Position numbers and translations under genes: made by a program
Source: Aureispira sp. CCB-QB1
GTDB taxonomy: Bacteria > Bacteroidota > Bacteroidia > Chitinophagales > Saprospiraceae
Direction: 5' to 3'
NCBI RefSeq assembly: GCF_000724545.1
Contig: NZ_JHBV01000008.1
Span: 124,001-188,000, forward strand
DNA: 64,000 bases
The notes under the pieces: generated by a model
Databases searched by the model: none
Told to the model about the DNA's origin: nothing
What the model saw: the letters and a program-made list of their open reading frames with translations, nothing else
In this document: positions 1,207 through 16,771 of the stretch, piece after piece
How positions within the stretch are numbered: position 1 is the stretch's first letter
Layout of the letters: every line of letters begins with the position of its first letter

Positions 1207-1236
1207 ATTTAACATAATATAAATTATAGGCAAAAA
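1207..1236 (-). other. Left attachment site (attL) containing a dif-like XerC/XerD site
   Basis: On the minus strand the 28 bp 1234-1207 reads as XerC-like arm TTTGCCTATAA, 6-bp centre TTTATA and XerD-like arm TTATGTTAAAT. The XerD arm is identical to that of E. coli dif as I know it, the centre differs at one base and the XerC arm matches at 7 of 11. Bases 1211-1236 are repeated exactly at 16746-16771. The intact XerD arm is on the chromosomal side of this junction, as expected if the chromosomal dif was split by integration. Confidence 0.85.
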
Positions 1237-1341
1237 ATGAACGACAGAAAAAGAACACGTATACCAACAGTTTTTGGCACAGCCACAGGAGCCGAAGCTC
1301 TAAAACTTGTCAAACATTTAATCTATGAATTAAAGGGATGA
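1237..1341 (+). CDS. Small basic protein, 34 aa, first gene of the element
   Basis: The ATG lies directly after the 26-bp repeat and its stop overlaps the next gene by ATGA. The product starts MNDRKRTRIPTVFG and ends with a short amphipathic helix. I do not recognise it. The tight coupling to the next gene supports translation. Its promoter must lie across the att site: chromosomal sequence when integrated, the right end of the element when circular. Expression could therefore change on integration (inference). Confidence 0.55.
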   Translation: MNDRKRTRIPTVFGTATGAEALKLVKHLIYELKG

Positions 1342-1652
1342 TAAAGTATTATGATTTTTTAGTTGGGATTCCTGGAGAGAATCCTAAAGAATGGAAACTC
1401 CAAAAGTTAAAACTTGCGGCTATGAGTCCCGAAATGGCTGTTTATACAAGACAATTTTTAAGGGTTGGCAGAAGCCCTAAACGAGACAGAAAATACCATT
1501 TAGGTAAAGACGATGATAATAAATTGAGCCTCGCTTATATGTCTGTCAGAAAGATCATTGAATACGATTTGACAGCGACCAACGGCAATACTAGATACAC
1601 CTTTAAGAAAGTAAATGAATACCGAATTGACAAGAATCTAAAGATAGTTTGA
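1338..1652 (+). CDS. Hypothetical phage protein, 104 aa
   Basis: It starts in an ATGA overlap with the 34-aa ORF and ends just before the next start. The protein is basic and contains 'MSPEMAVYTRQFLRVGRSPKRDRKYH', then a C-terminal half that looks beta-rich. There is no signal peptide or membrane segment. Its place in the first operon of the element suggests an early role in replication or host takeover, but I do not recognise the family. Confidence 0.7.
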   Translation: MIKYYDFLVGIPGENPKEWKLQKLKLAAMSPEMAVYTRQFLRVGRSPKRDRKYHLGKDDDNKLSLAYMSVRKIIEYDLTATNGNTRYTFKKVNEYRIDKNLKIV

Positions 1653-1654
1653 TA

Positions 1655-2218
1655 ATGGAAAAAGCAAGAATACCAAAAGGACTAGCACCATTGGAATTTA
1701 TATTATTCTATTTACATCCATTTCCAAGGAACCAAAAACTAATTAAAAAATCAAATAACAACAAAATGAAAGCAATAGAAGTTAAACCAGACTTTCTTCC
1801 TGCAAACTTGAAAGTAAAATCCGCAAAGTTGGTAAACCAAGACGGTATAGAGAAAATCATTGTAGCAGTAAAAGAAGGCGCAAATGATCTAATACTATCA
1901 TTCACAAATGAAGGCGGTCTATTTGAGCAAATTATTGAGAGCATACACGAAGCAGGCACTCCCCTATACATTCAAGTTGAGGCATTTTTTAATGATTTAT
2001 TTAACCGCTTACCTCGCTTTATCGAGCAAGATAGTATCCGCTATGAATTAGGGCGTTTTCCTGCTCCTGGTAAAGAGCATGATAGAGTTGTTTACCAAGC
2101 TGTAAATCTCAAGGAAATAGCAAAAGACAAATTAATCTTAGTAGAAGTTAAAGCTCCTGCTATGATCCGAGCCAATTCATTAATGCACCAAAAACTAGAG
2201 AATCTAGGATTCTTATAA
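1655..2218 (+). CDS. Hypothetical phage protein, 187 aa
   Basis: The first ATG is 2 bases after the previous stop. A second in-frame ATG at 1766 (MKAIEVKPDF) would give a 150-aa protein and may be the main start, since the intervening residues look unlike a conserved domain. The body alternates beta strands and helices, without membrane segments. It is the third gene of the left operon and is followed by a long structured noncoding region. The family is not recognised. Confidence 0.7.
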   Translation: MEKARIPKGLAPLEFILFYLHPFPRNQKLIKKSNNNKMKAIEVKPDFLPANLKVKSAKLVNQDGIEKIIVAVKEGANDLILSFTNEGGLFEQIIESIHEAGTPLYIQVEAFFNDLFNRLPRFIEQDSIRYELGRFPAPGKEHDRVVYQAVNLKEIAKDKLILVEVKAPAMIRANSLMHQKLENLGFL

Positions 2219-2504
2219 AAACAGGGGTTTACTGTGGGGCGGTTGTCTAGCGTTTTTTTTGGTAATAATTTCCCTAGACACAGCGATACCGCCCCACTTT
2301 TGAATAGTACAGGAAATTTGACTGAGGGCGCTCAGCTCCTGGACAGATCCCGAAGCTCGAGCTGAACCAGGTAAAAAATATAAGTCATTGTAAAATAACT
2401 AATTATATGATTTCAATTGGAAAGAATAAAAAAGAAAGGAAAAGTGCAGAAATAAAAAAAGTGTACTTGAATCGTACACTAAATAGTAAAGAAAGGCTTT
2501 TAAA

Positions 2505-2521
2505 GTAGGTTCGATTCCTAC
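2505..2521 (+). other. tRNA T-arm-like hairpin
   Basis: The sequence is GTAGG-TTCGATT-CCTAC, a 5-bp stem with the 7-base loop typical of tRNA T arms. Bases 2523-2527 (ctatt) can pair with 2482-2486 (aatag) as a short acceptor-like stem. A hairpin at 2460-2480 has a 7-base loop containing GAA, but the spacing and missing D arm rule out a normal tRNA. It may be a tRNA remnant or a tRNA-like structural mimic. Confidence 0.4.
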
Positions 2522-2604
2522 CCTATTACAAGGACAGCAGATTGCTGTAAGCTGACCGAGCAGCTTTAAATATATTCGGATTTTAAACAGATAGATTAAA
2601 ATGA

Positions 2605-2633
2605 TTGACGGCTAAAGCAATCATTATTATAAG
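2605..2633 (+). promoter_or_regulatory. Sigma70-like promoter upstream of the replication gene
   Basis: TTGACG at 2605-2610 and TATAAG at 2628-2633 are spaced by exactly 17 bp, ending 18 bp before the ATG at 2652. The 13-bp word containing the -35 (attgacggctaaa) recurs at 6340-6352 ahead of the structural genes. This is closer to the E. coli consensus than to the usual Bacteroidota TTTG/TAnnTTTG promoter. Confidence 0.5.
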
Positions 2634-2651
2634 ATTAAACGAACTATAAAA

Positions 2652-4175
2652 ATGAAAGACAATTTTATAGAAAGGCTTTCTCATGCCTCAAATATAGGCT
2701 TTTTTCAGATGCTAAACAAGAAAGAGAGTGTTAAAGTTGCTTCTGGTATGCTTGATTTATTCCAACAAAAATGGAATAATCAGAAAGGACACGAAAGAGG
2801 CGGGATTGTATCAAGTACATACGATGTGCTGCACGCTATTTTAGATTGTGTAGGGCCCACAATGGAGGATGTCAGAAAAAAACAACCAGAACTATTTGTA
2901 CAATCAATCTTGGACGAGAAGATATTTGTTTTCATTTATAGGAAAACTCTTATATCCAAAATCAATAAAGGAGGAAAACACATATCAGCAGAATTAAAAC
3001 CCGAAACAATAGGCAATCAGCTCAAAAGATTAATGGAAGCAGGGGTTTTGATAGAAAAAAGAAATTACAACCTTAGAAGGGCAAAAAATGGCGAATTAGA
3101 GAACCCTTTACCCTCCGACTTGAACCCAAAAGGAAGAGGAAAAGTACAATATTTTTTCAATCCCAAAGTACTTGTTTTCAACTCTGCTTTTGACCGCCTA
3201 AAAACGTATTTAAACAATTCTTTTCAGCAATATAGGGTAAACCCTTTCTATTTAAAAAGAAAGCTTAATAAAACAATAATAGATAAACCTACTAATGTGA
3301 ATAATCAAAAGGCTTCGGCTATCGCCGAGAGTGAGTCTAAGACAAGAATAAATAAGGAACTAGGACGCAGATTATCTCAAAAAAACAAAATTTCGCCCCG
3401 CCAATTTGACAGCAAAAAGGAATTTAATACCCATCAATTACTAGAGCTTTGCCGTGCTAGATTGTTTGACGGTCGAGTGTTCACAGATGTAATTGAAAAA
3501 GGATCTCTCCAGGCCATCGAGGACAGAATCAAACAAACTATTGAAGCGGTTGAAGCTTACAATTCTGAAAAGGTCAAAACTTACACGGCTAGAGAGAAGT
3601 ATAAAAATTCTACTCGTAAAGAGTGGATGCTGCGAAAGTATCGGGAAAAACTACCAACCCCATACAGAGCAGCCATTGAAATAATGAGCTTTGCCATTCA
3701 GAAGCAAGAAAAGAACGCCATAAGCAAAGGATACCTTTGCAAGATCAAACGGCACAATAACGACCCAGTACAATTGTTCACCTCAAGTAATTTTGAGTAT
3801 GCTTTGAATTATTCTATCAGCGATTGGCGCAAGATTAATGATAACTTTTTTATCAAACACAAATCTTATTCAGCCTATTGTACAATAGTTGGAATGGTTG
3901 GCAAAATATACACTTACATCCTTGATTTAGCTTATCAAAGCCAAAGCATAGCCCTAGCTTATACTGAAAGTTTACAAGCCTGTGGAAAGCTCCAAACGAA
4001 AATAAATCAAAATACGATTCTCACCGAATCGAACAAGAAGGCCCTCAATGTTTTGATAAAAACAAAATTTGCTCCCCTATTCAGTTCTTTATCTCAAGAA
4101 GAAAAGGAACGCTTGAGAGCAGCCGCCAAAAATAAGGCGCATGGATCCACATACCAAAATACAAAAACTGCTTAA
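2652..4175 (+). CDS. Probable winged-helix replication initiation protein, 507 aa
   Basis: Residues about 60-150 look like a winged helix-turn-helix: predicted helices, then 'KPETIGNQLKRLMEAGVLI' followed by a basic wing. This resembles plasmid and phage initiators of the Rep type. The rest is Lys/Arg-rich and helical. I see no HUH nuclease motif, polymerase motif or Walker A. It has its own promoter and a structured origin-like region upstream, and the next gene begins 2 bases after its stop. The replication role rests on architecture and position only. Confidence 0.55.
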   Translation: MKDNFIERLSHASNIGFFQMLNKKESVKVASGMLDLFQQKWNNQKGHERGGIVSSTYDVLHAILDCVGPTMEDVRKKQPELFVQSILDEKIFVFIYRKTLISKINKGGKHISAELKPETIGNQLKRLMEAGVLIEKRNYNLRRAKNGELENPLPSDLNPKGRGKVQYFFNPKVLVFNSAFDRLKTYLNNSFQQYRVNPFYLKRKLNKTIIDKPTNVNNQKASAIAESESKTRINKELGRRLSQKNKISPRQFDSKKEFNTHQLLELCRARLFDGRVFTDVIEKGSLQAIEDRIKQTIEAVEAYNSEKVKTYTAREKYKNSTRKEWMLRKYREKLPTPYRAAIEIMSFAIQKQEKNAISKGYLCKIKRHNNDPVQLFTSSNFEYALNYSISDWRKINDNFFIKHKSYSAYCTIVGMVGKIYTYILDLAYQSQSIALAYTESLQACGKLQTKINQNTILTESNKKALNVLIKTKFAPLFSSLSQEEKERLRAAAKNKAHGSTYQNTKTA

Positions 4176-4177
4176 TC

Positions 4178-4597
4178 ATGGGAACATTACTAAGGACGAA
4201 ATACTACAACGCAGAAGGAGAAGCTTCTCTTCGTGGAATATCTACCCTAGAGGGAAGTATCACAAAATTTGAGAGAAACCTTAAAAAAAATCTTGGTGCT
4301 TGGGAATATGCTATTATCTACCACAATGGCGAAAAGCTGCACTATTACCACAACAGCACAGGAGTTTTAAAGCTCGACCTCGAGCAATACAAACAACAGC
4401 TCAATAAAAGTAGAATTAACCTTTATTTAGTACCTACACAGGAATACAAAAACAGAACAGGGCAACACCGTTTTAAGCCTGTTTACGGTGCTTCTATTCA
4501 AGATATGCCCAACTATTGTAATGATGATGTATTGAAGGTTATAGCCTATTTGGATAACAAAGTAATTAGAACGTACCAGGATGGAAAATTTCTATAA
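4178..4597 (+). CDS. Hypothetical phage protein, 139 aa
   Basis: It starts 2 bases after the stop of the putative Rep gene and overlaps the next gene by 17 bases, so it is translationally coupled. The product is rich in Tyr, Asn and Lys, with alternating beta and helix and no membrane segment. A run of aromatic and His residues (YHNGEKLHYYHN) is notable, but it does not form a convincing HUH motif with a downstream Tyr. Function unknown, probably replication-linked. Confidence 0.7.
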   Translation: MGTLLRTKYYNAEGEASLRGISTLEGSITKFERNLKKNLGAWEYAIIYHNGEKLHYYHNSTGVLKLDLEQYKQQLNKSRINLYLVPTQEYKNRTGQHRFKPVYGASIQDMPNYCNDDVLKVIAYLDNKVIRTYQDGKFL

Positions 4598-4937: not shown

Positions 4938-5027
4938 GACAAAAAAAAAGCCTAGCCCCCCGTGAAAGAAAGCTAGACCGAAATTAACCCTTTCGGAAAA
5001 AGATTAATTAATACTAAAAGCAAAACT

Positions 5028-6002
5028 ATGCAAAAGGCAGCAGAAAATAAAATAAAGAGGACTAAAAAAGGAACATTCCTAGTTGGTGAAACTAAAATTA
5101 TAAAAGCGATACCGTCTAAAGAGGAAGAAAATACGTGGTATATAGTAGATGCTTCTACAATAGTCGAACTAGACGAACAAGAGCTTATCAAGGTAAAAGC
5201 AACAGGCTCTGATGAAGAAAAGGTGCTAATAGTTAAGAGGTTTCTTTTACAAGGATTAACCCCCACCCAAATAAGTAAGAAAACTGGTTACAGTAGAACA
5301 ACAGTGTACAGATACAAAGGATTGCTTTCAGAAATGAACGCAAAAAAACGGGAAATGAACACTAAAAGTACGAAAACTTTAAAAAGTGTACTACCTATAT
5401 TCTTGTTTATCAATAACTTTGAGCTAAAATGTACACTAGCCATTATTTTCCTTTTATATGCTCTTTATGTTATTCTAAATAACGCAAAAATAAAGAAACA
5501 GTATGTAAAGCATTGTGAAGAGATTTCAAAGCTAAGATTTCAGTTTACTCTAGCTTGTAATTATTCTTTCAAAAAAGATGCGATTGCCTGTACTTCTGAC
5601 AAAGAAGCTGCGTACTTTAAAAAAGTACTAAGCCACTATCGAAATAAAAGCAGAGAAGTAATTGTATTGCCTCGGAATATAGGAGAACGAAACGATACTT
5701 ATTTTGACCGTAAAGAAGCAGCAAAAAGGCAATATAACTTAAACAACCAACCTAAAATAAGAGAAGGAAAAGAAGCCTTAAATAAATATTGGGAAAAATT
5801 AGAGGAACTCAAACTCTTAGATTACTTCTCTTTTCCAAAAGGTAAAAACTGGCTTGAGTCGAAGTGCTACATTCTTAGTGTAGTCGAGTTTATCCAGGAG
5901 AACCCAGAGCCTAAATCAATAGATAGAGCCAAAGGCAAATATTTGATAGATGCACTCCCTACTTCAACTATAACCCAAGCAGAGCTAGAAGCACTAAATT
6001 AG
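5028..6002 (+). CDS. HTH protein with a central membrane segment, 324 aa
   Basis: Residues 65-100 form a resolvase/transposase-type helix-turn-helix ('LTPTQISKKTGYSRTTVYRYK'). Residues about 120-150 are a strongly hydrophobic membrane segment, followed by a Lys-rich cytosolic domain of about 170 residues. A DNA-binding domain tethered to a membrane is unusual. It may be a membrane-bound regulator or may attach the genome to the membrane during virion assembly. There is no catalytic Ser or Tyr recombinase domain, so it is not an integrase. Confidence 0.6.
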   Translation: MQKAAENKIKRTKKGTFLVGETKIIKAIPSKEEENTWYIVDASTIVELDEQELIKVKATGSDEEKVLIVKRFLLQGLTPTQISKKTGYSRTTVYRYKGLLSEMNAKKREMNTKSTKTLKSVLPIFLFINNFELKCTLAIIFLLYALYVILNNAKIKKQYVKHCEEISKLRFQFTLACNYSFKKDAIACTSDKEAAYFKKVLSHYRNKSREVIVLPRNIGERNDTYFDRKEAAKRQYNLNNQPKIREGKEALNKYWEKLEELKLLDYFSFPKGKNWLESKCYILSVVEFIQENPEPKSIDRAKGKYLIDALPTSTITQAELEALN

Positions 6003-6024
6003 AAAATCCTAAAACTGTAAAGTT

Positions 6025-6689: not shown

Positions 6690-6727
6690 ACAGCAACTAT
6701 TGAGAACTCTCAATAGTTGCTGTCTTA
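6690..6727 (+). terminator. Strong hairpin after the 58-aa gene
   Basis: A perfect 15-bp stem (6690-6704 with 6709-6723) with a 4-base loop is followed by a weak T-rich tail. It ends just before the ATG at 6738, so it may be a terminator or an attenuator that lowers expression of the downstream structural genes. Confidence 0.75.
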
Positions 6728-6737
6728 TTTTACAACT

Positions 6738-7235
6738 ATGGCAAAAGCAAAGGATATATTAATTGGAGGTTTGGCTCTCGCTGGTGGCGTAACACTAGCA
6801 AAGGGAGCTATTGAATACGGTCTAAATAGAACGATTGAAAACATTACCTATACGCTAGGGCGGGCGACTGTAAGTTTGGCTAGAATTGGTAGTGGTATTG
6901 TTGAAATAAAACTACCCGTGTTCATATTGAATGAAAACGAATTTAGTATCAAAATAGATAAGTTTCTTGGAGCTGTGGCGTATGGCTCTGTTCCCTTGGG
7001 GGATATACTGATCCCTGATGAATTTACATTGATTTCAGGTGAAAGCATTGCGATAAATTTATTTTTTGATGTCAATATTTCAAGCACGGTGCAAGGGGTG
7101 TTTTTATCTGCTCAAAATGGCGGTTTCGGTGCTGTACTAGACAAAATTTATCTCAAGGGAGATTTGTTTGTTTTGGGTGGCTCTTTCTTCGGTCAAGTCA
7201 AAATTCCCATTGAAACGACAATAAAAATTATATGA
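6738..7235 (+). CDS. Membrane-anchored beta-rich structural protein candidate, 165 aa
   Basis: I choose the ATG at 6738 (MAKAKDILIGG) because an earlier in-frame start falls inside the hairpin. Residues about 6-25 form a Gly/Ala/Leu-rich membrane segment. The rest is almost all beta strand ('VEIKLPVFILNENEFSIKI'), like LEA2-type or virion beta-sandwich proteins. It overlaps the next gene by 4 bases (ATGA). It is probably a virion membrane-associated protein; this is inferred from context. Confidence 0.6.
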   Translation: MAKAKDILIGGLALAGGVTLAKGAIEYGLNRTIENITYTLGRATVSLARIGSGIVEIKLPVFILNENEFSIKIDKFLGAVAYGSVPLGDILIPDEFTLISGESIAINLFFDVNISSTVQGVFLSAQNGGFGAVLDKIYLKGDLFVLGGSFFGQVKIPIETTIKII

Positions 7236-9166
7236 TAGATACTAGTACTATTCCTCCGTCTAATTATGTTAGAGAGCTTCACCATCACAACGGAGCTACT
7301 CAAGATATTATAGATGTAATCTTGTTAGCAGATAAAAAAAACGATACTCGTTTTTGTGAATTTGCTAAACAATTTGAACCAACTAAAGCAGGTTTAAAAA
7401 AGCTTTGGAAATTCACAAAGCACCAAATCAAATACAAAACGGATGCCTTTGGCACTCAAGATATAAAATTTCCTGCCGCTCTTTGGAAAGTAAGGAAAGG
7501 AGATTGTAAAAGCAAAACCCTCTTTATAAATCAAGTGCTTAAATGCTTAGGTATAGATTATATCACACGGTTTGTAAAGTTTGATAAAGGCGATTATACC
7601 CATGTTTATAGTATTGCTATTCTAAACGGTCAAAAAATCCCAATAGATAGCGTTTACGATTATTTCAACAAAGAAGCTCCTTTTTTTAAAGAACTAGATT
7701 TTATGACTAAAATATCCACCATTGAAGGCCACAATATCAGTAGAGCCATAGGAGAAGATTTATATTATCAAGCGCAAGAAGCTGCTCAAAAGCGTTACCA
7801 GGAAATCCAACAACGCAAACAGTATGTGCAACCAGAGCCGCCAATTAATTTTGGAAATCTTACTGAAGGCGCAGCTCTCGCAGAATTGTTAATTCGTAAG
7901 CTCAAGATAATTGGGGTGATGAAAGACGAGCAAAAGGCGACCACAGAGAAAGGAATTGGACTAGTTAGAAATAGCATTAAAAACGGCAAGGTAGGCGGTA
8001 TTATTCCCGATGAACTGCAAGGAGTAGCAGCAAGAATTAACCATTACTTATCCCTCAATGGCTCTGCGGTTGGTCATGGTGCTAGAGGTCGATTACTTGA
8101 CTTTTTGAAACTCAAAGCAGGGAGTGAAAGTAGTTTTGTTGGTCGTCAAGGTTTGGTTTGTTTGGCTAGTCTATGGTGGAGACAACAAGGGGGGACGGGA
8201 ACAACTGTTGATCCTTTTGTTTACGATCAATTTTCGGGCGATGCTGCTTTTGATTGTAATTCTAACACTAGATTCTATTTGTCACAAGGTTCTTCAAATC
8301 ACTATTTTTTCTATGGCAGAAATACAGCGAAATTTAGAACGAGTTATATGCAGTCTTGGTCTCAATTTGAAAATATTTTAAACAATTTTGTCACCAAGTT
8401 TCCCAACGCAACATCAAAAATAAATAACAATTTTGTATATAATTTTGCTAACAGTAGCGTCTATGATGCTTTAATTGAAGAGTTAAAACAAAAAATGCCT
8501 GTTTTGTCCAATTGGGCTAATGACCTATTCAGAGCTGACAATACCCGCCCTAATGGTACAGTTGGTACTGGTATGCTTTACAATTTTGTGCCTTATGTAA
8601 CACAAATTGCAGGAATTACCCCAGGGAATTTCCCTAGTATTGTACAAACAAAAATGGTTTTACAACAACAATATATAGATAGTTGTGTCAATTTTTCTAC
8701 TATCTCAAGAACCGTTTTTGAAGATATGTCGGAAAATGGGATTCTTTTCGACAATGGTGGAAGGTCACCAGAAATAATCTTATCTGCCTTACTAAAAAGA
8801 CATAACCCCAATGTTGGAGAACCTATATCAACTATAATTGCTGCGGTTGCCTCTCTTTTGTCGGCTGTGTTGCCAGCCGTAATAGCATTCGCTAATGGTG
8901 GTATTAGTGATGCTTCAAAGATAGATGATGCTTCAAAAAATACGGCAGGATTCAAACCGCAATCAGGAAGCACATTACCAAATATGAGCGACTTTACACC
9001 TCTAGCTCCAAGCGGCGGCGGCTCTGGTGGTGGAAGTAATAGCGGCGGCGGTGGTAGTGGTGGCTCTAGTGGAGGGAACAACAATTCCAAGAAAAAAGGC
9101 TCTATACTACCTTGGGTACTCGCAGGTCTTGGATTATATACATACAACAACAGAAAGAAAAAATAA
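7232..9166 (+). CDS. Transglutaminase-like cysteine protein with C-terminal membrane anchor, 644 aa
   Basis: Residues 50-150 carry the transglutaminase/papain-like triad layout: Cys92 in KGDCKSKT, His124 in DYTHVYSI and Asp139 in PIDSVYD. A long unrecognised middle follows, then a Gly/Ser-rich linker (about 590-620) and a C-terminal membrane segment with a basic tail (623-644, ends NNRKKK). It is the largest gene of the element and starts in an ATGA overlap. It may be a vertex or spike enzyme acting on host or virion proteins, or a maturation protease. Catalytic identity is supported by motifs; role is inference. Confidence 0.65.
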   Translation: MIDTSTIPPSNYVRELHHHNGATQDIIDVILLADKKNDTRFCEFAKQFEPTKAGLKKLWKFTKHQIKYKTDAFGTQDIKFPAALWKVRKGDCKSKTLFINQVLKCLGIDYITRFVKFDKGDYTHVYSIAILNGQKIPIDSVYDYFNKEAPFFKELDFMTKISTIEGHNISRAIGEDLYYQAQEAAQKRYQEIQQRKQYVQPEPPINFGNLTEGAALAELLIRKLKIIGVMKDEQKATTEKGIGLVRNSIKNGKVGGIIPDELQGVAARINHYLSLNGSAVGHGARGRLLDFLKLKAGSESSFVGRQGLVCLASLWWRQQGGTGTTVDPFVYDQFSGDAAFDCNSNTRFYLSQGSSNHYFFYGRNTAKFRTSYMQSWSQFENILNNFVTKFPNATSKINNNFVYNFANSSVYDALIEELKQKMPVLSNWANDLFRADNTRPNGTVGTGMLYNFVPYVTQIAGITPGNFPSIVQTKMVLQQQYIDSCVNFSTISRTVFEDMSENGILFDNGGRSPEIILSALLKRHNPNVGEPISTIIAAVASLLSAVLPAVIAFANGGISDASKIDDASKNTAGFKPQSGSTLPNMSDFTPLAPSGGGSGGGSNSGGGGSGGSSGGNNNSKKKGSILPWVLAGLGLYTYNNRKKK

Positions 9167-9190: not shown

Positions 9191-9439
9191 ATGGCAAAAG
9201 CAAGAAAAACCCGAAAAAAAATATCGGGTACAAGACGAAAAGTAACGAAATACCAAAAGTTACAAAAGGCAGTATCCAAAAACTGTAAAAACCCAACAGC
9301 AGCCAACAAAAAAGCGGTTGCAAAGGCAAAACAAGATTATGTGGATGATGCAGTAAAAAAAGGCAAAACTATCCGAGAAGCTGAAAAGGTTGCGAGAAAA
9401 GCGGACACTTGCACGCCAATCAGAAAACGAAAAAAATAA
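9191..9439 (+). CDS. Small very basic protein, 82 aa, candidate genome-condensing protein
   Basis: The product is extremely rich in Lys and Arg across its length (starts MAKARKTRKKISG, ends RKRKK), with Ala-rich helical stretches. There is no signal or membrane segment. Such small basic proteins in virion gene clusters often bind the packaged genome. It sits between two membrane-anchored virion candidates. It is not a ribosomal or histone-like protein that I recognise. Confidence 0.6.
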   Translation: MAKARKTRKKISGTRRKVTKYQKLQKAVSKNCKNPTAANKKAVAKAKQDYVDDAVKKGKTIREAEKVARKADTCTPIRKRKK

Positions 9440-9489
9440 ACCCTTCTAGGGGCATTTATAAATTTAATTATTAACCAAAAATATAAATT

Positions 9490-9984
9490 ATGAGTTGTGG
9501 ATGTAACACAGGGTACCAAGATGTAGGCATCGAGGGCATGGATGAAGCAGACATGATGTTAATGGGTGGTGCAGTAGGTGGTTATGTAGCTACTGCATAC
9601 ATTGACAATATGCTAGTGTACGAGAAAGACGGCACTAAAAAAACAGGAGCAATTGCAGAAAATGACACCATGCGAAACGGTGGTTATGCTTTGGCAGGGG
9701 TCGCTCTAAACTGGTTTATGCCTGATGAGCCGTTGGCAAAAGGTGCGGGTATAGGTATGGCTATCTATGGAGTAAAAGAATTGATTAGAGGGCAATATCC
9801 AACCGCAGGAATCAAAGGCATTAGAAGAAATGGGAATCCCCAATATCTTGCAGGAAACCAACAGCGAAACGGAAGCCCCAAATATATTGGGAGAGCCGAT
9901 AGCTCAAGAATGAATTTAGGGCTAAGCAACAATAGCCAAAACGCCCAAAAGCAAAAGACAAGTAAAGTAAGAGTTGAGTATTAG
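9490..9984 (+). CDS. Gly-rich membrane protein, virion candidate, 164 aa
   Basis: The N-terminus is Cys/Gly-rich (MSCGCNTGYQ). Two Gly/Ala-rich hydrophobic stretches follow, around residues 26-40 and 68-95, then a polar tail rich in Asn, Gln and Arg with short NGNPQYL/NGSPKYI repeats. It probably spans a membrane once or twice. Position between the basic protein and the capsid candidates suggests a virion membrane protein. Family not recognised. Confidence 0.6.
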   Translation: MSCGCNTGYQDVGIEGMDEADMMLMGGAVGGYVATAYIDNMLVYEKDGTKKTGAIAENDTMRNGGYALAGVALNWFMPDEPLAKGAGIGMAIYGVKELIRGQYPTAGIKGIRRNGNPQYLAGNQQRNGSPKYIGRADSSRMNLGLSNNSQNAQKQKTSKVRVEY

Positions 9985-10044: not shown

Positions 10045-10776
10045 ATGGAACAAACAATAGTTCAAGTTAATTGCAGCCCCAATTTATACGATGCAGCAAG
10101 AAAGAAGATGAAATCTGTATTAATGAATAAGTATAACATTGATGTAGATAATTATGAAACACAGATCCGCTTAATTCAAAAGAACGAGGAAATCAAAAAT
10201 GGAATACTGAATCTAAAATTTGATTTGAGTAATCAAGCGAGAGATTCCAACAGCGAAACGCCAATAGTAAATAATGATGTTTTTATTCCTTTTGGTATTG
10301 CTTTGGGTTTTGTCAAAACACCTTTAATCTCTGGAACGCAATATGAATCAATCGAAAATCAACAGATTATTTATTTTAATTCTGAAACCGTTTTCACTTA
10401 TACGGCTACTGGAGCAGTAAGCCAAGCCAAAGCTTTAGAATCTTTATATTATTCAAAAGCTAGCTTTCTATCTGGAAACGGTAATATTATTAACGAATTT
10501 CCCGCAAGAGAGCTGAAACGAGTGCCACAAGGAAAAATAGAAGGATTTTACTACTACCAAAATGGTAAATACTTCATGATGACTGAGTTCCCTTTCTTAG
10601 ATGGGAGTAATAAAAACGAGGTAAAATTTGATGTACCATCGGCTGACACGGCTTCGGCAAGTGGAAATCCTGCAACAGAAAAAACATACGCAATTTTGCA
10701 ACTAATGGGATTTAACATTAGCGGTTTGTCAAAGGACTACAAGTCTTTAGATTGCGAAATTAAATGTGTTGATTAA
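10045..10776 (+). CDS. Candidate capsid protein, 243 aa
   Basis: The protein is beta-rich and has no membrane segment. Residues 140-157 contain the motif N-[IL]-[IL]-x-x-F-P-x-x-E-L (N147 to L157), which recurs at residues 240-250 of the next gene's product, also preceded by Ser-Phe-Leu. It has its own upstream gap and a terminator-like hairpin after it, as expected of a highly expressed structural gene. I infer a jelly-roll capsid or vertex protein related to its neighbour; a single jelly-roll would fit its length. Confidence 0.55.
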   Translation: MEQTIVQVNCSPNLYDAARKKMKSVLMNKYNIDVDNYETQIRLIQKNEEIKNGILNLKFDLSNQARDSNSETPIVNNDVFIPFGIALGFVKTPLISGTQYESIENQQIIYFNSETVFTYTATGAVSQAKALESLYYSKASFLSGNGNIINEFPARELKRVPQGKIEGFYYYQNGKYFMMTEFPFLDGSNKNEVKFDVPSADTASASGNPATEKTYAILQLMGFNISGLSKDYKSLDCEIKCVD

Positions 10777-10856: not shown

Positions 10857-11756
10857 ATGCAACCAACAAAAATACACGGACTAAGCAGCAAACTATTAAC
10901 ACTACCAACAGCAAATGGTGTTAATTCTTATAATTTGGGAATCTTTAACGGTACTTTTCAGCAAAGTGATAAAATCGTTGCCATTGCCTTTAGATACAAT
11001 AAAGCTTCTATTGCTTCATTAGCTTACAAATCGGTTGATGATAGACCTCTTTTAAATGTTTCAGAAACAAGAAGCGGTTATCTAAACTTGGTAGAAGATA
11101 ACGGCAATAATACCAATATTTTGTACAACCATAATTTATGGTTGATGGTCACCGAATCAAACGAGCAAGATTTTTATGGAATCTTTATTCCCCCTTGCAA
11201 TATCAAATGGACACAATCAAGTATAGAATTTTCTCCTTCTATTGCTTTTGATGGCACAAAGGACATGGAGTTTAATGTCTATTATATCACAAACTGCCAA
11301 GAACCCATTGAGCCGAATATCATTTTTGACAATGATTTTAAATACAATGCTGTAAAGAAGAAAACTATACAAATCAATGCAAAAGCAAATGAGCAATCTT
11401 TTGCCATAGGTACGAATCCATTGTCTAACTGTGATAAAATTGTAGGCTTGCGATATGATGAGTTTGAATTTGAAACAACAGACGGAAGAACCAACGTATC
11501 CAAAGGCTCTACTTTTCCCGCTATCCCCGCAGCTTTAGGAGCTTCTTTTTTAACAATGCGCATTGGCTCAAGGAACCTATTAGAAAATTTCCCTCTAACA
11601 GAATTGAGAGCTTTCTACCATGTTGGCTTTCCTTATTTTCCTATCGAGCCAACACAAGCACAATATTTCAACTGGAATCAGTGTAAAATAACCTTACCTA
11701 GCAAAGCACTCACTCAAGATAATACAGCCTATTTATTGACCATTTATTACATGTAG
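10857..11756 (+). CDS. Candidate double jelly-roll major capsid protein, 299 aa
   Basis: The protein is beta-rich with an internal duplication at a constant offset of 155 residues. DKIV occurs at 38-41 and 193-196. The ends 117-144 and 272-299 align without gaps and share Trp118/273, Gln120/275, Ile123/278 and Tyr-Tyr 142-143/297-298. Two tandem similar barrels are the hallmark of double jelly-roll capsid proteins, and the length is close to PM2 P2 and FLiP capsid proteins as I recall them. It shares the N-L-L-x-x-F-P-x-x-E-L motif with the preceding gene. Sequence identity to known capsids cannot be checked here. Confidence 0.6.
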   Translation: MQPTKIHGLSSKLLTLPTANGVNSYNLGIFNGTFQQSDKIVAIAFRYNKASIASLAYKSVDDRPLLNVSETRSGYLNLVEDNGNNTNILYNHNLWLMVTESNEQDFYGIFIPPCNIKWTQSSIEFSPSIAFDGTKDMEFNVYYITNCQEPIEPNIIFDNDFKYNAVKKKTIQINAKANEQSFAIGTNPLSNCDKIVGLRYDEFEFETTDGRTNVSKGSTFPAIPAALGASFLTMRIGSRNLLENFPLTELRAFYHVGFPYFPIEPTQAQYFNWNQCKITLPSKALTQDNTAYLLTIYYM

Positions 11757-11759: not shown

Positions 11760-12650
11760 ATGGAAGAAAGAATTGAAATAATTGCTCAAAAAATAGAGGG
11801 TTGGATGAAATCTAACAGGATGGGCGATTTAGAAAGCAAACCTTGCTACTGGTCTATTTATGAACTGTCCTCTATCAGTTCAAAACCTATGAAAAATGCG
11901 GCCACTAATTGCGATAATTTATCCATAGAAGGACTAGAGCCGAGCTTAAAACACCTAATGGACTGCATGAGTTATAGTACCCATGTCAAATATTTTGCGG
12001 TTCGATTAAGAACGCAAAAGGGAGATAGTGGCGTATTGAATAACTTTGAAAATCCATATTACCAAGCTCCATACAATTACAACAAAACCCACCAAATAGG
12101 AAATATACCTCAAGCTCAAGGAAACAACAATATGATGCAATTTATGATTGGTATGGTTAATAGCATGAACGAAGAGAGCCGAGCAAGAAGAGAAGAAAAC
12201 AATGCTTTATTAACAGAGCTTAAACTTCAAAGTCAAGAAAGAGAACACAAGTTTAGAGAGTATAAGCATAAGCAAGAAATTGCACGATTAAAAGAACAAA
12301 ACGAAGCTAGTCAAAACAGCAACAAAAGTCTTTTTAGGGAAATAATCGGTGCTTTTGAACCAGGGGAAATAAAAGACATAATAGGCTTTTTTCTAACGAG
12401 GAAAAACACACCATACGAGGAAGAGGAAGAAGCCGAGGAAGAAGAAGGTTATCCAGTAGAGGATAACCGCAACCAACAACTACTAGATAGCTCTTTAAGT
12501 ATGCTATCTACTAAAGTAAACAATCCCGAAATGTTAGTTTATAAAATGGCTGTGGTGTTGGCGGGTGCATCTGAGGAAGAATCAAATCAGCTTTTATCTG
12601 CCGTCCAAACACGGTACAACCAAATCAAGCAAAATAAAGCTCATGAGTAA
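11760..12650 (+). CDS. Coiled-coil phage protein, 296 aa
   Basis: The N-terminal 100 residues are a compact, mostly helical domain. A Gln/Asn-rich linker follows, then a charged coiled coil at about 145-190 (REENNALLTELKLQSQERE and onward), a very acidic stretch around 222-232 and a helical C-terminus. It starts 3 bases after the capsid candidate and overlaps the next gene by ATGA. It may be a scaffold, assembly or vertex-associated protein. No ATPase motif is present. Confidence 0.6.
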   Translation: MEERIEIIAQKIEGWMKSNRMGDLESKPCYWSIYELSSISSKPMKNAATNCDNLSIEGLEPSLKHLMDCMSYSTHVKYFAVRLRTQKGDSGVLNNFENPYYQAPYNYNKTHQIGNIPQAQGNNNMMQFMIGMVNSMNEESRARREENNALLTELKLQSQEREHKFREYKHKQEIARLKEQNEASQNSNKSLFREIIGAFEPGEIKDIIGFFLTRKNTPYEEEEEAEEEEGYPVEDNRNQQLLDSSLSMLSTKVNNPEMLVYKMAVVLAGASEEESNQLLSAVQTRYNQIKQNKAHE

Positions 12651-12915
12651 TAAAAAAGCAATGCCTAGCGGTCTACAAATAAAAAACAATCCCACACCTT
12701 TTGAGTATTGTAATACAACATTCCTTGCAATTAAAAATAAAAGTAATGGCGTTATCCAATACAATTTTGGTGGCTCTAAGCTCGAACTTGATATTAACGA
12801 AGAAGATGTTTATCCAAGTCCAAACGCTCCCATGAGTGGAAAGATTGAATTTTCTATACCGACAACAACTACTTCTATCAACATAAAAATTAAAACAGTC
12901 CAACAACATGACTAA
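12643..12915 (+). CDS. Small beta-rich phage protein, 90 aa
   Basis: I choose the ATG at 12643, which overlaps the preceding stop (ATGA); a longer frame from 12565 lies inside the upstream gene. The product is beta-rich and polar, ending in a Thr/Ser-rich stretch and IKIKTVQQHD. It is likely a small single-barrel structural protein such as a minor capsid or spike subunit (inference). It overlaps the next small gene by 8 bases. Confidence 0.6.
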   Translation: MSNKKAMPSGLQIKNNPTPFEYCNTTFLAIKNKSNGVIQYNFGGSKLELDINEEDVYPSPNAPMSGKIEFSIPTTTTSINIKIKTVQQHD

Positions 12916-13084: not shown

Positions 13085-13089
13085 ATAAA

Positions 13090-13791
13090 ATGAGTGATCC
13101 AATACTAACTATCATAGATTCAAAGGACGCTCCAGCTCGCAAAGTTTGGGTGCAAAATTTCAATCAGTACAGATCAAACAATTCTTTTAAAGATGCTGCT
13201 CAATTAATTTGGGATGATTGGAATACGCAAGGGAATGTTTTTTTTGAATTATTCCCAACTCCTGAAGCTTTAATTTTTAGCCTGGTAACTTATGTACCTC
13301 AAAGAGTAGATTTACCTCTAGTGAGTGCAGCTCCTACGCCTATAAAATGGAACGATACCCCAAGCTATGATACATTTTACAATCTATATCATAGTATTTA
13401 TGTTTGGAATTGTGCCGACTGGCAAGCGTGGCACGAAGCATTAGAAGCTTATTACCAAAGCACAACAACCGCCAATGGTATTTGGAAAAGTGCCTGGTTG
13501 CACGAAGATAATTACTGTTTTGCTTTAGGGCAGTTTATTTGTCCTGTTACTTCTAATTGTCGTTACGATTGTGATTTTGTAGAATACTTTGCAAGTAAAG
13601 GAATGGAAATAGGCAATCTTTTTTCTAACACGGTTTGCGATTTATCAAACGTAATTTTGAATTTAACAGAATCAGCACAAAATGTTTCTCAAGGTGTCAA
13701 AGACACTACAAAAACGGTTTCTAAACTATTACCTTTTGCTGCGGTCGCAGTTATTGGTTATGGAGGAACAAAACTTTATAAAGCACTTTAA
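13090..13791 (+). CDS. C-terminally anchored Cys/Trp-rich phage protein, 233 aa
   Basis: The body is rich in Trp and Tyr (for example WNCADWQAWHEALEAYY at about 112-128) and has several Cys residues around 145-190 (CPVTSNCRYDC). The C-terminus is a membrane segment (AAVAVIGYGG) with a short LYKAL tail. I do not recognise the family. It is probably an exposed virion protein anchored through its C-terminus. Confidence 0.6.
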   Translation: MSDPILTIIDSKDAPARKVWVQNFNQYRSNNSFKDAAQLIWDDWNTQGNVFFELFPTPEALIFSLVTYVPQRVDLPLVSAAPTPIKWNDTPSYDTFYNLYHSIYVWNCADWQAWHEALEAYYQSTTTANGIWKSAWLHEDNYCFALGQFICPVTSNCRYDCDFVEYFASKGMEIGNLFSNTVCDLSNVILNLTESAQNVSQGVKDTTKTVSKLLPFAAVAVIGYGGTKLYKAL

Positions 13792-13802
13792 AATTACTTA
13801 CA

Positions 13803-14417
13803 ATGAATAATGAAACATTAGCTATCCTAATATTTGGAGCTGCTGCCATTTATTATATGACTCCAAAAGCAGAGCCAGAGAATATGTTTTTTGTTCCTGG
13901 TGTTGGAGATGTTCCAGAATCTGAATTGCCTGAATACGGCTATATTAAATACAATGGCAAATGGTTTAAAAAGTCGGATATTATACAAGCTGCTCAGAGC
14001 AACGGAATGACAAGCCCAGGCAATATTGATATTACTACTCAACAAGGTTTTGATATTTTTATGACTTTGCTCAATGCAGGATTGGGACTTACTTCAACTA
14101 TTATTGCCAATACTGCCCAAAGAAAAGCGGATTTAATAGAGCAGATAGAAACAAAGTATACATTAACCGTTTCATCTTCTTACGACCCCAATTTTCCATT
14201 TACTACGGCACAATTAAACGCTTTGACTATTGAAAAATTAAAAAAGGTGTTAAGTGGTGATTTCGCAGTTAGTGGTATTAAGAGCCGCCCAGACATTAAT
14301 CATAATGTACAATGTTATGATGGTCAGTACACCGATTCTAAAGGGCGTGGTTCATGTAGTTATCATGGAGGCATTCGACAAACTGGCGGTCGTGCGCCTT
14401 GGATTGAAAATTTATAA
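13803..14417 (+). CDS. Membrane-anchored protein with C-terminal DUF3761-like motif, 204 aa
   Basis: The N-terminal membrane segment spans residues 5-20. A middle helical region includes a second hydrophobic stretch (85-105). The C-terminus has the motif Cys171-Tyr-Asp-Gly-Gln-Tyr-Thr followed by GSCSYHGGI (Cys185), like the short DUF3761 signature (C.DGx.S...CSxHGG). The same motif recurs in the element's last gene. It lies 2 bases before the virion-lysozyme candidate. The role is unknown. Confidence 0.55.
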   Translation: MNNETLAILIFGAAAIYYMTPKAEPENMFFVPGVGDVPESELPEYGYIKYNGKWFKKSDIIQAAQSNGMTSPGNIDITTQQGFDIFMTLLNAGLGLTSTIIANTAQRKADLIEQIETKYTLTVSSSYDPNFPFTTAQLNALTIEKLKKVLSGDFAVSGIKSRPDINHNVQCYDGQYTDSKGRGSCSYHGGIRQTGGRAPWIENL

Positions 14418-14419
14418 TT

Positions 14420-14980
14420 ATGGATTCTAAGAATAAAAAAGCGGCTTTAGTTGGATTGGGTGTTTTGGCTCTGTTAGTACTTCCTAATCAATCAAAAGCC
14501 AATACAAATACACCAGGCCCGCAACCACCAACAGGGGGGATTGTCCCAGGAGCCCCCGAAGGGAGTATTAACGAATCATTTTTAGGAACAAACAATCCTA
14601 GAGGGATGCGTAATAACAACCCTGGTAATTTAAAAATAGGCAATTCTCCTTGGCAAGGGAAAATACCTGTTTCTCAAAATACAGACGGCACATTTGAACA
14701 ATTTACTTCTTTCCCCTTAGGAGCTAGAGCGATGATAAAGCTCTTAATAAATTACATTAATCAAGGGCGCAACACGCCTAAAAAAATTATTCAGTATTGG
14801 GATTTAGGCGCACCCCATTACACAGCGTTTTTAGTTGGTGCAACTGGTTATGGTGAGAATCAAGTTCTCCAAGCAGATAAACCCACGCTTAAAAAGCTGT
14901 CACAAGCGATTGCTAAGTTTGAAAATGGTAGAGACATCTTGACAGATCCTCGATTTGAAACAGCTTACCAATTGTTATAA
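14420..14980 (+). CDS. Membrane-anchored virion-lysozyme-like muramidase, 186 aa
   Basis: The N-terminal membrane segment (residues 8-22) is followed by a Pro/Gly-rich linker. A domain starts at about 57 with GMRNNNPGNLK and continues with WQGKIP, FEQFTSFPLGARAM and a C-terminal helical part. The NNPGNL opening is typical of phage structural lysozymes of the P5 type that cut peptidoglycan during entry. Being membrane-anchored and inside the structural cluster fits a virion-borne enzyme rather than a free endolysin. No catalytic residue was assigned with certainty. Confidence 0.75.
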   Translation: MDSKNKKAALVGLGVLALLVLPNQSKANTNTPGPQPPTGGIVPGAPEGSINESFLGTNNPRGMRNNNPGNLKIGNSPWQGKIPVSQNTDGTFEQFTSFPLGARAMIKLLINYINQGRNTPKKIIQYWDLGAPHYTAFLVGATGYGENQVLQADKPTLKKLSQAIAKFENGRDILTDPRFETAYQLL

Positions 14981-14993
14981 AAATAAGGAAAGA

Positions 14994-15275
14994 ATGAACC
15001 CTTTAGAGGAAATTGTCCTAGATTTTGTTATAGGATTTTGTGCAACAACTTTGCTTTATTGTCTTTATGTTTTGGTTGTTGTAAAACTAAGTACAAAGAG
15101 TATAAGAAGCGAATACTTAACAGAAACAGTCATTAATGAAATTAAGGGAGAAACTACAAAACACCTAATCCAAATAGAGCGTCGATTAAATGCAAAATCC
15201 ATGATTTATATTGACAAAAATTTTAATCGACTTAACGATAGGATTGAACGTTTGATAAATAATCGTAAGACATGA
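14994..15275 (+). CDS. Small membrane protein with helical tail, 93 aa
   Basis: I choose the ATG at 14994 (MNPLEEIVLDF); an upstream frame overlaps the lysozyme gene. One long membrane segment (about residues 8-32) is followed by a charged, coiled-coil-prone tail. It overlaps the next gene by ATGA. Such an anchor plus helix could be a lysis accessory (spanin- or holin-like) or a virion protein. The sequence does not decide. Confidence 0.55.
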   Translation: MNPLEEIVLDFVIGFCATTLLYCLYVLVVVKLSTKSIRSEYLTETVINEIKGETTKHLIQIERRLNAKSMIYIDKNFNRLNDRIERLINNRKT

Positions 15276-15424
15276 AAAGATTAAAAAAATACATCATCAT
15301 TAACCTATTAATTTTAGTTGTCCTGTTGGGTATCAGATGGCATAAAAACAGCAAGAAAGTAGCACATACTCCTAATAATGACCGTATACCGATTGCAGCA
15401 GATTTAATAAAAAAAGATACTTGA
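15272..15424 (+). CDS. Small membrane protein, 50 aa
   Basis: It starts with MKRLKKYIII, has one membrane segment (about 7-21) and a basic, polar tail. It is coupled to the previous gene by an ATGA overlap. With its partner it forms a two-gene membrane unit right after the lysozyme gene, a place where lysis genes are often found. Function unproven. Confidence 0.55.
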   Translation: MKRLKKYIIINLLILVVLLGIRWHKNSKKVAHTPNNDRIPIAADLIKKDT

Positions 15425-15459
15425 ATTTTTTTTATTAAAAAAATAGATGTATACTTGTA

Positions 15460-15591
15460 GTTGTCAAGCAAAAAATAATTATATGAGAACAAGAAATCCT
15501 TAATTGTAATAGCGCAAAAGGATTATAAGTGGAATACATAACTTCTTGTTCGGTATTTTTGTTTGACAACCCACTTATAATCCTTTTGCGC
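15460..15591 (+). promoter_or_regulatory. Nested and crossing inverted repeats; bistable noncoding element
   Basis: Three pairs of arms lie in order A, C, B, C', A', B'. A/A' is 15460-15474 with 15556-15570 (15 bp, one G-U). C/C' is 15487-15495 with 15543-15551 (9 bp). B/B' is 15512-15532 with 15571-15591 (a perfect 21 bp). A/A' and C/C' nest, while B/B' crosses both. The sequence can therefore fold in two mutually exclusive ways or as a pseudoknot. It is a strong candidate for an origin, packaging signal or RNA switch. Confidence 0.7.
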
Positions 15592-15627
15592 TTCTTTTGT
15601 TTATCCGTCCCACTTAAATAAGTTATT

Positions 15628-16047
15628 ATGATAAGATTATTGATAATTGGATTATTAGCTTTTATTGGGTATGCTCCTTGTTCATTAGCTTATAGTGTTG
15701 TATATGCTCCACCAGTCGAAAAACATACTAAAAAGAAAGCGAGTTCGAGGAGAATAAAAAAGAAGAGGATTCAAAGAGAAAGGATGCAAAATAAGAAAAT
15801 GAAAACTAGCACTTTGCTTTTTTTCTTGAGTACTCTTTGTTCTTTGGTATCTCTGATGGCGACAATATTTTCTTTGACATTAGGTGCATCATTAATAGGA
15901 AGTGTTTTTACAATAGGTTTTCTTGCATTAGCTGTTCTGTTCTTGATTTTCGGATTTGTTGAAAAAGGGAAGGAAAAAAGTGGCGGTGACGGCTCTGGCG
16001 GATTGGGAGGAAAGGATAAAAACACAAGTGGTAATTTAGGCGATTAG
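15628..16047 (+). CDS. Membrane protein with signal-like N-terminus, 139 aa
   Basis: The N-terminus is a signal peptide or membrane anchor (MIRLLIIGLLAFIGYAPCSLA). A very basic stretch (about 32-58) follows, then two hydrophobic segments (about 60-85 and 88-112) and a Gly/Ser/Lys tail (GGDGSGGLGGKDKN). It is preceded by the crossing inverted repeats, which may control it. The family is not recognised; a membrane-remodelling, lysis or superinfection role is possible. Confidence 0.55.
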   Translation: MIRLLIIGLLAFIGYAPCSLAYSVVYAPPVEKHTKKKASSRRIKKKRIQRERMQNKKMKTSTLLFFLSTLCSLVSLMATIFSLTLGASLIGSVFTIGFLALAVLFLIFGFVEKGKEKSGGDGSGGLGGKDKNTSGNLGD

Positions 16048-16239
16048 GGTGGGTTACAAACTAGTAACGAACCTAATTAATTTGTAACATTAAAAATAGT
16101 GTACGTTTCTAAAGCTTTTCAATTTCCTTGGATCTCACTTCTGCAGAAAAAAATAAAATGCCTTTAAGATACCATTAAGGCAGATACTTAAAATAATACT
16201 CCAAAAATTAGCGTACAATTCAAAACTAATAAATTAATT

Positions 16240-16710
16240 ATGTCTGATCTTTTAAAAATAGGTTTGTTGTTTGGAGGACTTGCTTTGTTGAATAGAAAAA
16301 AAAAGCCTGGTATTGGTAAGATGCACGATAGAGGTACTAAAGAAATGATACCTTGTAATAATGGCCGCTATTCAGATTCTTTTCCCTCTCCTGGTTCTTG
16401 TTCTAGTAATGGCGGTGTTAATTATGAGAAAGTGTACAAAGATTACTTTATGAATAGGGGCGTTTCTTTAGAATCTGTAAAGATTAATAAGAACAAAGTC
16501 AAAATTGATTTTGGAACAAAAACTTTTCACTCTCTGAAAAAAGTTGATAGAGCTTTTGATAATAATAGAAATATTGAAAATGTCAAAATGAAACGTTTTC
16601 ATTCCCCAGGAGCAAGATACATAAGATCATTAGAAGTAGAAATATCTTATAAAAATAATACGGCTTTTCTTGAAGATGTTATGAAGAAGTGGAGAAGAAG
16701 CGAAGGTTAA
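16240..16710 (+). CDS. Last gene of the element: membrane-anchored DUF3761-like protein, 156 aa
   Basis: The N-terminus has a short membrane segment (LLKIGLLFGGLALL) followed directly by NRKKKPG, matching the anchor layout of the virion proteins. Residues about 39-62 carry CNNGRYSDS ... GSCSSNGGV, the same motif as in the 13803-14417 product. A basic beta/alpha C-terminal domain follows. A 190-bp gap with inverted repeats (gttacaaa 16053-16060 with 16081-16088) separates it from the cluster. It may be a separately controlled gene. Confidence 0.6.
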   Translation: MSDLLKIGLLFGGLALLNRKKKPGIGKMHDRGTKEMIPCNNGRYSDSFPSPGSCSSNGGVNYEKVYKDYFMNRGVSLESVKINKNKVKIDFGTKTFHSLKKVDRAFDNNRNIENVKMKRFHSPGARYIRSLEVEISYKNNTAFLEDVMKKWRRSEG

Positions 16711-16741
16711 CCTCCCCTTTTTAAAAGGCTTAAAACACATC

Positions 16742-16771
16742 AAAAAACATAATATAAATTATAGGCAAAAA
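16742..16771 (-). other. Right attachment site (attR) with degenerate XerD arm
   Basis: Bases 16746-16771 exactly repeat 1211-1236. On the minus strand the XerC-like arm (TTTGCCTATAA) and the centre are intact, but the XerD arm reads TTATGTTTTTT instead of TTATGTTAAAT. The degenerate arm faces the element, as expected if the circular element carried an imperfect attP. The 16711-17020 gap holds only this site and a hairpin at 16958-16994. Confidence 0.85.

Follow-up and report, generated by a model that had tools for sequence, protein, structure and literature searches.

The window analysed here is a stretch of 64,000 nucleotides from Aureispira sp. CCB-QB1 (Saprospiraceae; assembly GCF_000724545.1, contig NZ_JHBV01000008.1, positions 124,001 to 188,000 of the forward strand). 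Near its left end an exact 26-bp direct repeat bounds an element of 15.5 kb, in which 22 genes were predicted, all on the plus strand and together covering about 89% of its length (Table 1). From composition, about 4e-6 such repeat pairs are expected by chance in 64 kb, and the genome of this strain (7.37 Mb in 184 contigs) contains no other copy even when three mismatches are allowed. The element is very probably an integrative mobile element exploiting Xer (IMEX) that sits in the chromosomal dif site and borrows the recombinases of its host. In what follows G000 is the strain's own genome, G156 a genome of the same species and G002 one of the same genus; published systems are described from excerpts of the papers cited.

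The repeat and the dif site

The left copy of the repeat completes, on the minus strand, a 28-mer identical at 23 of its 28 positions to the dif site of E. coli, the XerD arm being identical throughout. The right copy departs from this in the outer part of the XerD arm; the inner half of that arm is preserved, as are the centre and the XerC arm. The original prediction had described the perfect repeat, the dif-like 28-mer with its E. coli-type XerD arm and an element site (attP) differing from dif in one arm, and all of this is borne out, the outer XerD arm being lost in the right copy. It had, however, placed the degenerate part in the inner XerD arm, which has to be corrected to the outer one.

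The conservation of the site was followed in 398 genomes of the family. An exact 19-mer that includes the inner XerD arm was present in 234 of them, against 2 for the same sequence read backwards, and was single-copy in 231 of the 234, the other three (G147, G162 and G419) having two copies. The centre and XerC arm, as a 17-mer, occurred in 183 of the 398 genomes (control, 6) and more than once in six (G000, G156, G002, G147, G162 and G296). When the 21-mer core was searched with up to three mismatches it was recovered in 42 of 60 genomes, our own included; many of the three-mismatch matches are due to chance, since the backwards control matches too, and the close ones viewed in context have the left arm TAYTTAAC in common.

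The position of the site on the chromosome was read from the GC skew of G156. Of 20 samples of 20 kb, the 11 lying between 0.365 and 4.015 Mb all had positive skew and the nine others all had negative skew. The switch, between 4.035 and 4.380 Mb, brackets dif at 4.079 Mb and the element at 4.079-4.094 Mb, which agrees with the earlier suggestion that the window lies at or near the replication terminus. One host protein scores above the cut-off of the XerD family, and the genome encodes a further close homologue. The dif site restored by the left copy is conserved and single-copy.

In the three genomes with two copies of the 19-mer, two contigs each (L151-L154, L157, L158) start at most 134 bases from the dif core, a pattern that a repeat or an insertion polymorphism at this place could produce.

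Probable integration by host recombinases

Relatives of the strain have the same site in different states. In G156 a different, related element of about 14.9 kb occupies it. Compared in 50-bp bins, the chromosomal sequences to the left of the element in G000 and G156 agree at 94-100% as far as position 1200. The two bins beyond the repeat show 56% identity, and across g104, the first gene beside the left attachment site (attL), most bins are back at 84-96%. The two elements have 11 gene families in common at 23-41% protein identity, with the exception of g104 at 86.5%. That they share their ends, as a 98.7% match reaching into the element had suggested, is ruled out by the 56% bins.

The dif core was found at the junction with the TPR-repeat gene, without this element, in G002, G003 and G005. 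In G002 the dif beside the homologous TPR-gene flank is empty; in G005 dif is followed by an ORF read as thrC, and in G003 by a remnant of g104. The search for an uninterrupted site that the original prediction had called for thus gave a positive answer, and the situation that would have spoken against it, close relatives with dif elsewhere and no empty site here, was not encountered, as the empty site in G002 is at the same junction.

Moreover, G002 has a separate contig of 16,496 bp (CAKZQC010000030.1, uncultured Saprospiraceae bacterium) with a 77-bp terminal repeat and one dif-like attP. Of the 22 window genes, 19 have homologues on this 16.4-kb relative, and their order is unchanged; one of the pairs is matched at E 0.003 only. 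With its terminal repeat the contig must be a closed circle or a tandem, and it is apparently a circle. Two points weigh against using it as proof of a circular form: a head-to-tail tandem would give the same terminal repeat, and the putative circle is that of a relative and not of the copy in the window.

An IMEX is recognised by its insertion at chromosomal dif, its dif-like attP and the lack of an integrase of its own. The insertion lies at dif, a dif-like attP is seen in the right copy and in the circle-like contig of G002, and an integrase or resolvase catalytic domain was recognised neither by Pfam in the 22 genes nor by PHROGs in the 11 of them on which that search was run. At E 1e-4 phmmer matched no element gene to an integrase or to the Xer-like proteins of the host, and the invertase and resolvase models that match the 324-aa protein do so over its helix-turn-helix portion only. 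The earlier claim that the element has no integrase therefore stands as far as these searches reach, and no cryptic one came to light among the 22 genes. Because the site is exactly dif, no integrase was recognised and the relatives of the first gene lie beside dif-type sites, we infer that host XerC and XerD carry out the reaction.

Alternatively, the element might have entered by a recombinase of its own that escapes recognition, dif being merely its target. As all 22 genes stay below the Pfam cut-offs, such an enzyme could be hidden among them; tailless Vibrio dif prophages are described as regularly having integrases (PMC11630473), and an integrase-like gene was found in 2 of the 22 stretches of the family that were fetched. 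Both of these stretches (G133:C238 and G134:C65) are, however, on contigs other than the dif-bearing ones, no recombinase was recognised in the element itself, and its core has retained the XerC arm and centre of dif along with the inner XerD arm, something that an enzyme of foreign origin would not require. We regard this explanation as very improbable.

In the reaction that we propose with borrowed host enzymes, the circle would have a single attP with an XerC arm and centre identical to those of the host dif and only the inner half of the XerD arm. Host XerC and XerD would pair it with the chromosomal dif and exchange strands, and insertion would restore an intact dif on the side of the TPR gene and leave a hybrid site on the other; as dif is regenerated, chromosome dimer resolution could continue. 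The same pair of sites would permit excision, presumably also of the copy in the window. A single-strand hairpin attP of the CTXphi kind was considered and rejected: among the 25 longest inverted repeats the sole inverted dif-like match is 84% over 19 nt, lies about 460 bp from the left core and falls in a gene.

This way of integrating is already known, since dif prophages have been described in Bacteroidota and in Vibrio. The Vibrio IMEX that is reported to encode the Xer activation factor XafT is TLCphi. According to the excerpts cited, the attP of TLCphi has an XerC arm and centre near those of dif and a degenerate XerD arm, and XerD starts its reversible reaction without FtsK (PMC4246890). 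In that arrangement TLCphi, from Vibrio cholerae, resembles the window element; unlike it, TLCphi is described as a satellite of filamentous phages, and no shared gene family was found. Vibrio dif prophages include filamentous and some tailless phages (PMC11630473, PMC9966536). The NO16-like non-tailed vibriophages (Asemoviridae) are temperate and proposed to use XerCD and a dif-like site, but they have Vibrio hosts and belong to Tectiliviricetes (PMC9966536), and no packaging ATPase motif was found in the window element. Closer in host are the Bacteroidetes microvirus proviruses (BMVs), described as having dif-like flanks and no integrase; BMV1 is nevertheless a microvirus relative of 6.3 kb (PMC3091885), and no microvirus gene was recognised in the window element. 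The PhiCjT23-like single-stranded DNA (ssDNA) prophages of Bacteroidota are dif-flanked and measure 6.0-8.4 kb (PMC9719478), and contigs of the FLiP group, likewise ssDNA phages of Bacteroidota, reach 17 kb (PMC5894146). Both groups have, in the excerpts, a recognised replication initiator (PMC9719478, PMC5894146), whereas none was recognised here, and phage records gave no match to any of the three proteins of the window used as queries.

To the right of attR the chromosomes of G000 and G156 differ over 1.5-1.9 kb (16772-18635 in the window), where G156 has, on our reading of its ORFs, IS3-like transposase genes; the XerC side of dif has the look of a hotspot for insertions. Further to the right, at 21461-23437, lie two adjacent similar genes, each about 72% identical in DNA to the G156 counterpart of the other.

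The gene beside attL

The product of g104 had no PHROG match (two members of its family tried), no NCBIfam match and no credible PDB match, and Pfam searches with nine members gave nothing better than E 0.005, each match being in a single member. What distinguishes this family is its position: in the sequences searched its nine genes lie at eight sites, all of them beside dif-type sites.

A search of the assembled stretches (159 sequences with the window, 14,084 fragments) returned the known members and one more, in G133, at E 6.8e-4, or at 2.2e-5 with the profile of the four other rows once that of G003 was added. A match in L114 (E 0.0086; 0.11 and 0.021) was treated as noise. When 26 genomes were searched whole, six matches were obtained in four of them (G003, G133, G138 and G337). 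Those of G003 and G133 were part of the query; the other four, in G138 and G337, are new genes at three sites and were outside the query alignment. The 26 genomes are a small sample, mostly drafts, that we chose ourselves, partly for dif or family matches; G156 and G002 lay outside it, and of the 21 family genomes with a match to the 644-aa protein all but 12 were searched whole for g104. In the genome of the strain, the window copy is the sole g104.

Five of the six whole-genome matches start at most 81 bp from a dif-like core; the remaining one is a second paralogue and lies 441 bp from such a core. At the new sites the distances, taken from ORF starts, are 79, 20 and 34 bp, to cores with 0, 0 and 2 mismatches; judging by the 18 cores counted in 400 kb of G156, a random position has a probability of about 0.014 of lying within 150 bp of a core with at most three mismatches. 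In G138 the dif-side g104 stands in a run of phage-like ORFs, relatives of window proteins among them, with a candidate second attachment site 34 kb away. Two further observations were made in G337. At about 9785-9846 of L167 a closely spaced pair of dif-like cores in inverted orientation is found where g104 starts, an arrangement that recalls the paired sites of CTXphi; on another contig, at position 5754 of L166, a degenerate dif-like core is followed by g104 with phage-like genes, as we read them, on either side, and perhaps tandem elements at dif are present there.

The G133 gene adjoins the right attachment site of a dif-flanked element of 7.25 kb (L147, 3840-11094). The Rep protein of this element matches, at E 2e-8 to 1e-7 and 23-25% identity, replication initiation factors from the Cellulophaga phages phi12:2, phi18:4 and Omtje; the element also has a virion-structural PHROG match and an M15 peptidase. 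By these sequence matches it is an ssDNA-type phage, of a different kind from the window element.

With respect to the larger elements, g104 was found beside the attachment site in all five genomes that have an element of the family, or the G002 circle, at a dif-type site (G000, G156, G002, G138 and G337). Where the family element is off the dif contig (G133, G134, G145, G162 and G303), four genomes have no g104 and G133 has it at its dif-flanked phage only.

We tentatively propose that g104 is a factor for the control of Xer recombination. It would let the element fire XerCD, or set the direction of the reaction, outside the normal step controlled by FtsK, as XafT reportedly does; the existence of a Vibrio IMEX that encodes such a factor is reported in the excerpt cited (PMC9765430). 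Several points weigh against this proposal. The role is derived from position and analogy, not from homology, g104 being likened to XafT by its place beside the attachment site and by description. In G133 the gene is on the XerD side of the site and in the opposite orientation, so that its geometry is not fixed. Finally, a dif-flanked element of 8.66 kb in G296 (L146, 113-8787) has no recognisable g104, and the gene is therefore not needed by every dif element. This G296 element, between two dif-type cores, encodes a 589-aa protein to which no family was assigned.

There is about an even chance that g104 is instead an immunity, exclusion or regulatory gene that merely stands at the end of dif elements. 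Genes at prophage ends are often cargo of this sort; no other gene is as well conserved as g104 between the elements of G000 and G156, and a lone remnant of it lies beside dif in G003. Its presence in a phage of a different kind, with a Cellulophaga-type Rep, speaks against this alternative, as does the fact that it was not found in four whole-searched genomes whose family elements lie off the dif contig. On that proposal, it is conceivable, if somewhat less than an even prospect, that g104 founds a phage-borne family of Xer-control proteins in Bacteroidota, acquired by different viruses and each time beside a dif-type attachment site. Its carriers would then possibly be the group of the window element, the larger relatives that G138 and G337 have at dif, and the small phage with the Cellulophaga-type Rep in G133.

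Virus-like genes and relatives

Table 1. Features at the insertion site and within the element (window coordinates)
Feature	Position	Strand	Basis or remark
TPR-repeat gene (as called), chromosomal left flank, conserved neighbour of dif	167..1063	+	homologous flank beside dif in G002, G003, G005
attL, chromosomal dif restored, with XerC arm, centre and whole XerD arm	1207..1234	-	sequence comparison
Left copy of 26-bp repeat	1211..1236	+	
g104, 104 aa, gene next to attL	1338..1652	+	family found beside dif-type sites
189-aa protein, function unassigned, present in G156 too	1649..2218	+	
507-aa protein, function unassigned; also on G002 circle-like contig (535 aa)	2652..4175	+	
Two small proteins, 139 and 118 aa	4178..4937	+	118-aa: sub-threshold Rol_Rep_N, E 0.0048
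324-aa helix-turn-helix protein with membrane segment, no recombinase catalytic domain	5028..6002	+	
Two small proteins, 79 and 105 aa	6025..6680	+	
LEA_2-like 172-aa protein, N-terminal membrane segment	6717..7235	+	Pfam E 2.5e-5, just under cut-off
644-aa protein, transglutaminase/papain-like C92-H124-D139 (reading), membrane segment towards C-terminus	7232..9166	+	
Small basic 82-aa protein and 164-aa protein	9191..9984	+	
J243 (243 aa), capsid-like candidate, weak model	10045..10776	+	
J299 (299 aa), capsid-like candidate, tandem duplication of a shorter protein (133-175 aa) seen in relatives	10857..11756	+	
296-aa and 116-aa proteins of conserved cassette	11760..12915	+	
233-aa and 204-aa conserved proteins	13090..14417	+	
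Endolysin-like protein	14420..14980	+	phrog_873, E 1.5e-23
Three small proteins, 106, 139 and 156 aa, two with membrane segments	14955..16710	+	
attR, right repeat copy, with whole XerC arm and centre and a substituted outer XerD arm	16746..16771	+	

No terminase, portal or HK97 capsid protein was matched above cut-off in the element by Pfam or PHROGs; the Terminase_5 match (E 0.06) covers the helix-turn-helix only, and where PHROGs for tape-measure and head proteins match the endolysin-like protein, they do so on the stretch of its endolysin match. A Walker A motif, as in packaging ATPases of the FtsK/HerA type, is absent from all 22 genes; in the excerpts, most but not all genomes of tailless double-stranded DNA double-jelly-roll phages of the PM2, PRD1 or NO16 type have such an ATPase (PMC5894146). 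Similarly, a Zot-like morphogenesis ATPase of Inoviridae was indicated neither by Pfam nor by a Walker A motif in the 22 genes, no microvirus capsid protein was matched by Pfam in the 22 genes or by PHROGs in the 11 tried, and neither a Rep family above cut-off nor an HUH motif, as in an M13-like rolling-circle Rep, was seen in the element.

The region after g104 varies between relatives. G000 and G002 have the 507-aa or 535-aa protein there, and G156 a Rep_1 rolling-circle protein (E 4.8e-14); from its position one might guess at a replication role for the 507-aa protein. A relationship to a 476-aa protein of L121, which itself has a weak match to replication-initiation PHROGs, was rejected, as the profile gave no match and hhalign E 0.67. 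Inside the element we also noted perfect inverted repeats of 22 nt (15511-15592) and 16 nt (6690-6723), possibly an origin or a terminator.

Two proteins are candidates for capsid components. The best Foldseek match of the J299 model is the major capsid protein of FLiP (E 2.9e-3, prob 0.35), with a non-capsid enzyme second, and the best matches of the J243 model are the capsid proteins of PBCV-1 and PRD1 (E 6.4e-3 and 8.0e-3). The AlphaFold2 models, made from two-sequence alignments, are poor (pLDDT 47.9 for J299 and 59.9 for J243), and in PDB sequence searches J299 matched no capsid protein and nothing credible was obtained for the element proteins tried. Since no match of either model reaches E 1e-3, with furin, peptidylglycine monooxygenase and other non-capsid folds close behind, a double jelly roll is not claimed, and the capsid-like appearance of the two models is suggestive only.

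J299 is of interest for another reason, as its counterpart in relatives is just 133-175 aa long. Each half of J299 aligns with the short family over its full length (hhalign E 7.6e-13 and 2.1e-12), and the halves align with each other (1.5e-4); the halves and the short family gave 0.013 or worse against 12 other element profiles. The short proteins had been chosen by their matches to the 299-aa profile, except for the L060 row, which was added by position; leaving that row out changed little (E 2.4e-11 and 1.1e-11). Because the halves match both the short family and each other, J299 is, on these profile alignments, a fused tandem duplication of its shorter relative.

The 644-aa protein is the hallmark by which a wider family of elements was traced. 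Its Cys-His-Asp set is invariant in three relatives, and across 20 the Cys and His are invariant and the Asp nearly so, from which we read it as transglutaminase/papain-like, and so protease-like. Its profile found matches in 21 of 398 family genomes and, at the level of the class, in 45 of 395, the strain's own being counted in both, and relatives occur on Persicobacter plasmids. The 243-aa protein as a single query found 4 of 199 family genomes, and its 14-row profile only the own genome among 119 of the class. Among the 22 fetched stretches, two of which overlap, the 644-aa relative was present in 21, the 243-aa relative in 13 and a match to the 299-aa profile in 7; neither of the latter two was found in the six class stretches L114-L119.

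In tblastn searches of phage records no match was obtained for the 243-aa protein, the 644-aa protein, g104, a distant 644-aa relative or the G133 g104. Peptide-pattern scans of IMG/VR contigs found none either, and this absence is weak evidence, since the scans need exact short peptides.

From these genes, the element is most likely a temperate virus of Saprospiraceae, perhaps a tailless one, and its copy in the window would be able to produce particles. The tail-fibre and tape-measure PHROG matches seen in a relative count against that part of the interpretation or, at the least, do not favour it. It might also be thought that the element is an integrated plasmid or a satellite that uses dif and carries lysis and surface genes with no virion of its own. 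The failure to recognise a terminase, a portal, a packaging ATPase motif or a known capsid protein would agree with this, and so would the 644-aa relatives on Persicobacter plasmids. But the conserved cassette resembles late genes, an endolysin or amidase is present, a relative has a tail-fibre-like protein, and capsid proteins head the fold searches, weak as these are; we therefore hold a non-viral element to be unlikely.

In open-licence literature, searched by titles and the beginnings of abstracts, we found no description of this element group or of a g104-like gene, and none of the J299 duplication; to that extent, these three appear to be new. A temperate virus in dif would add an IMEX built on a virus-like gene set for which phage records (three proteins, tblastn) and IMG/VR (pattern scans) gave no match. 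If J299 and its short relatives are jelly-roll capsid proteins, the duplication would be a visible step from single to double inside one element family. The dif sites, attP sites, empty site and circle assembled here form a natural set for the study of Xer recombination in Bacteroidota. If the proposed role of g104 is true, acquiring this gene together with a dif-like attP would be how a virus comes to dispense with an integrase of its own, and g104 would offer a single small gene for asking how a virus switches on the dimer-resolution enzymes of its host.

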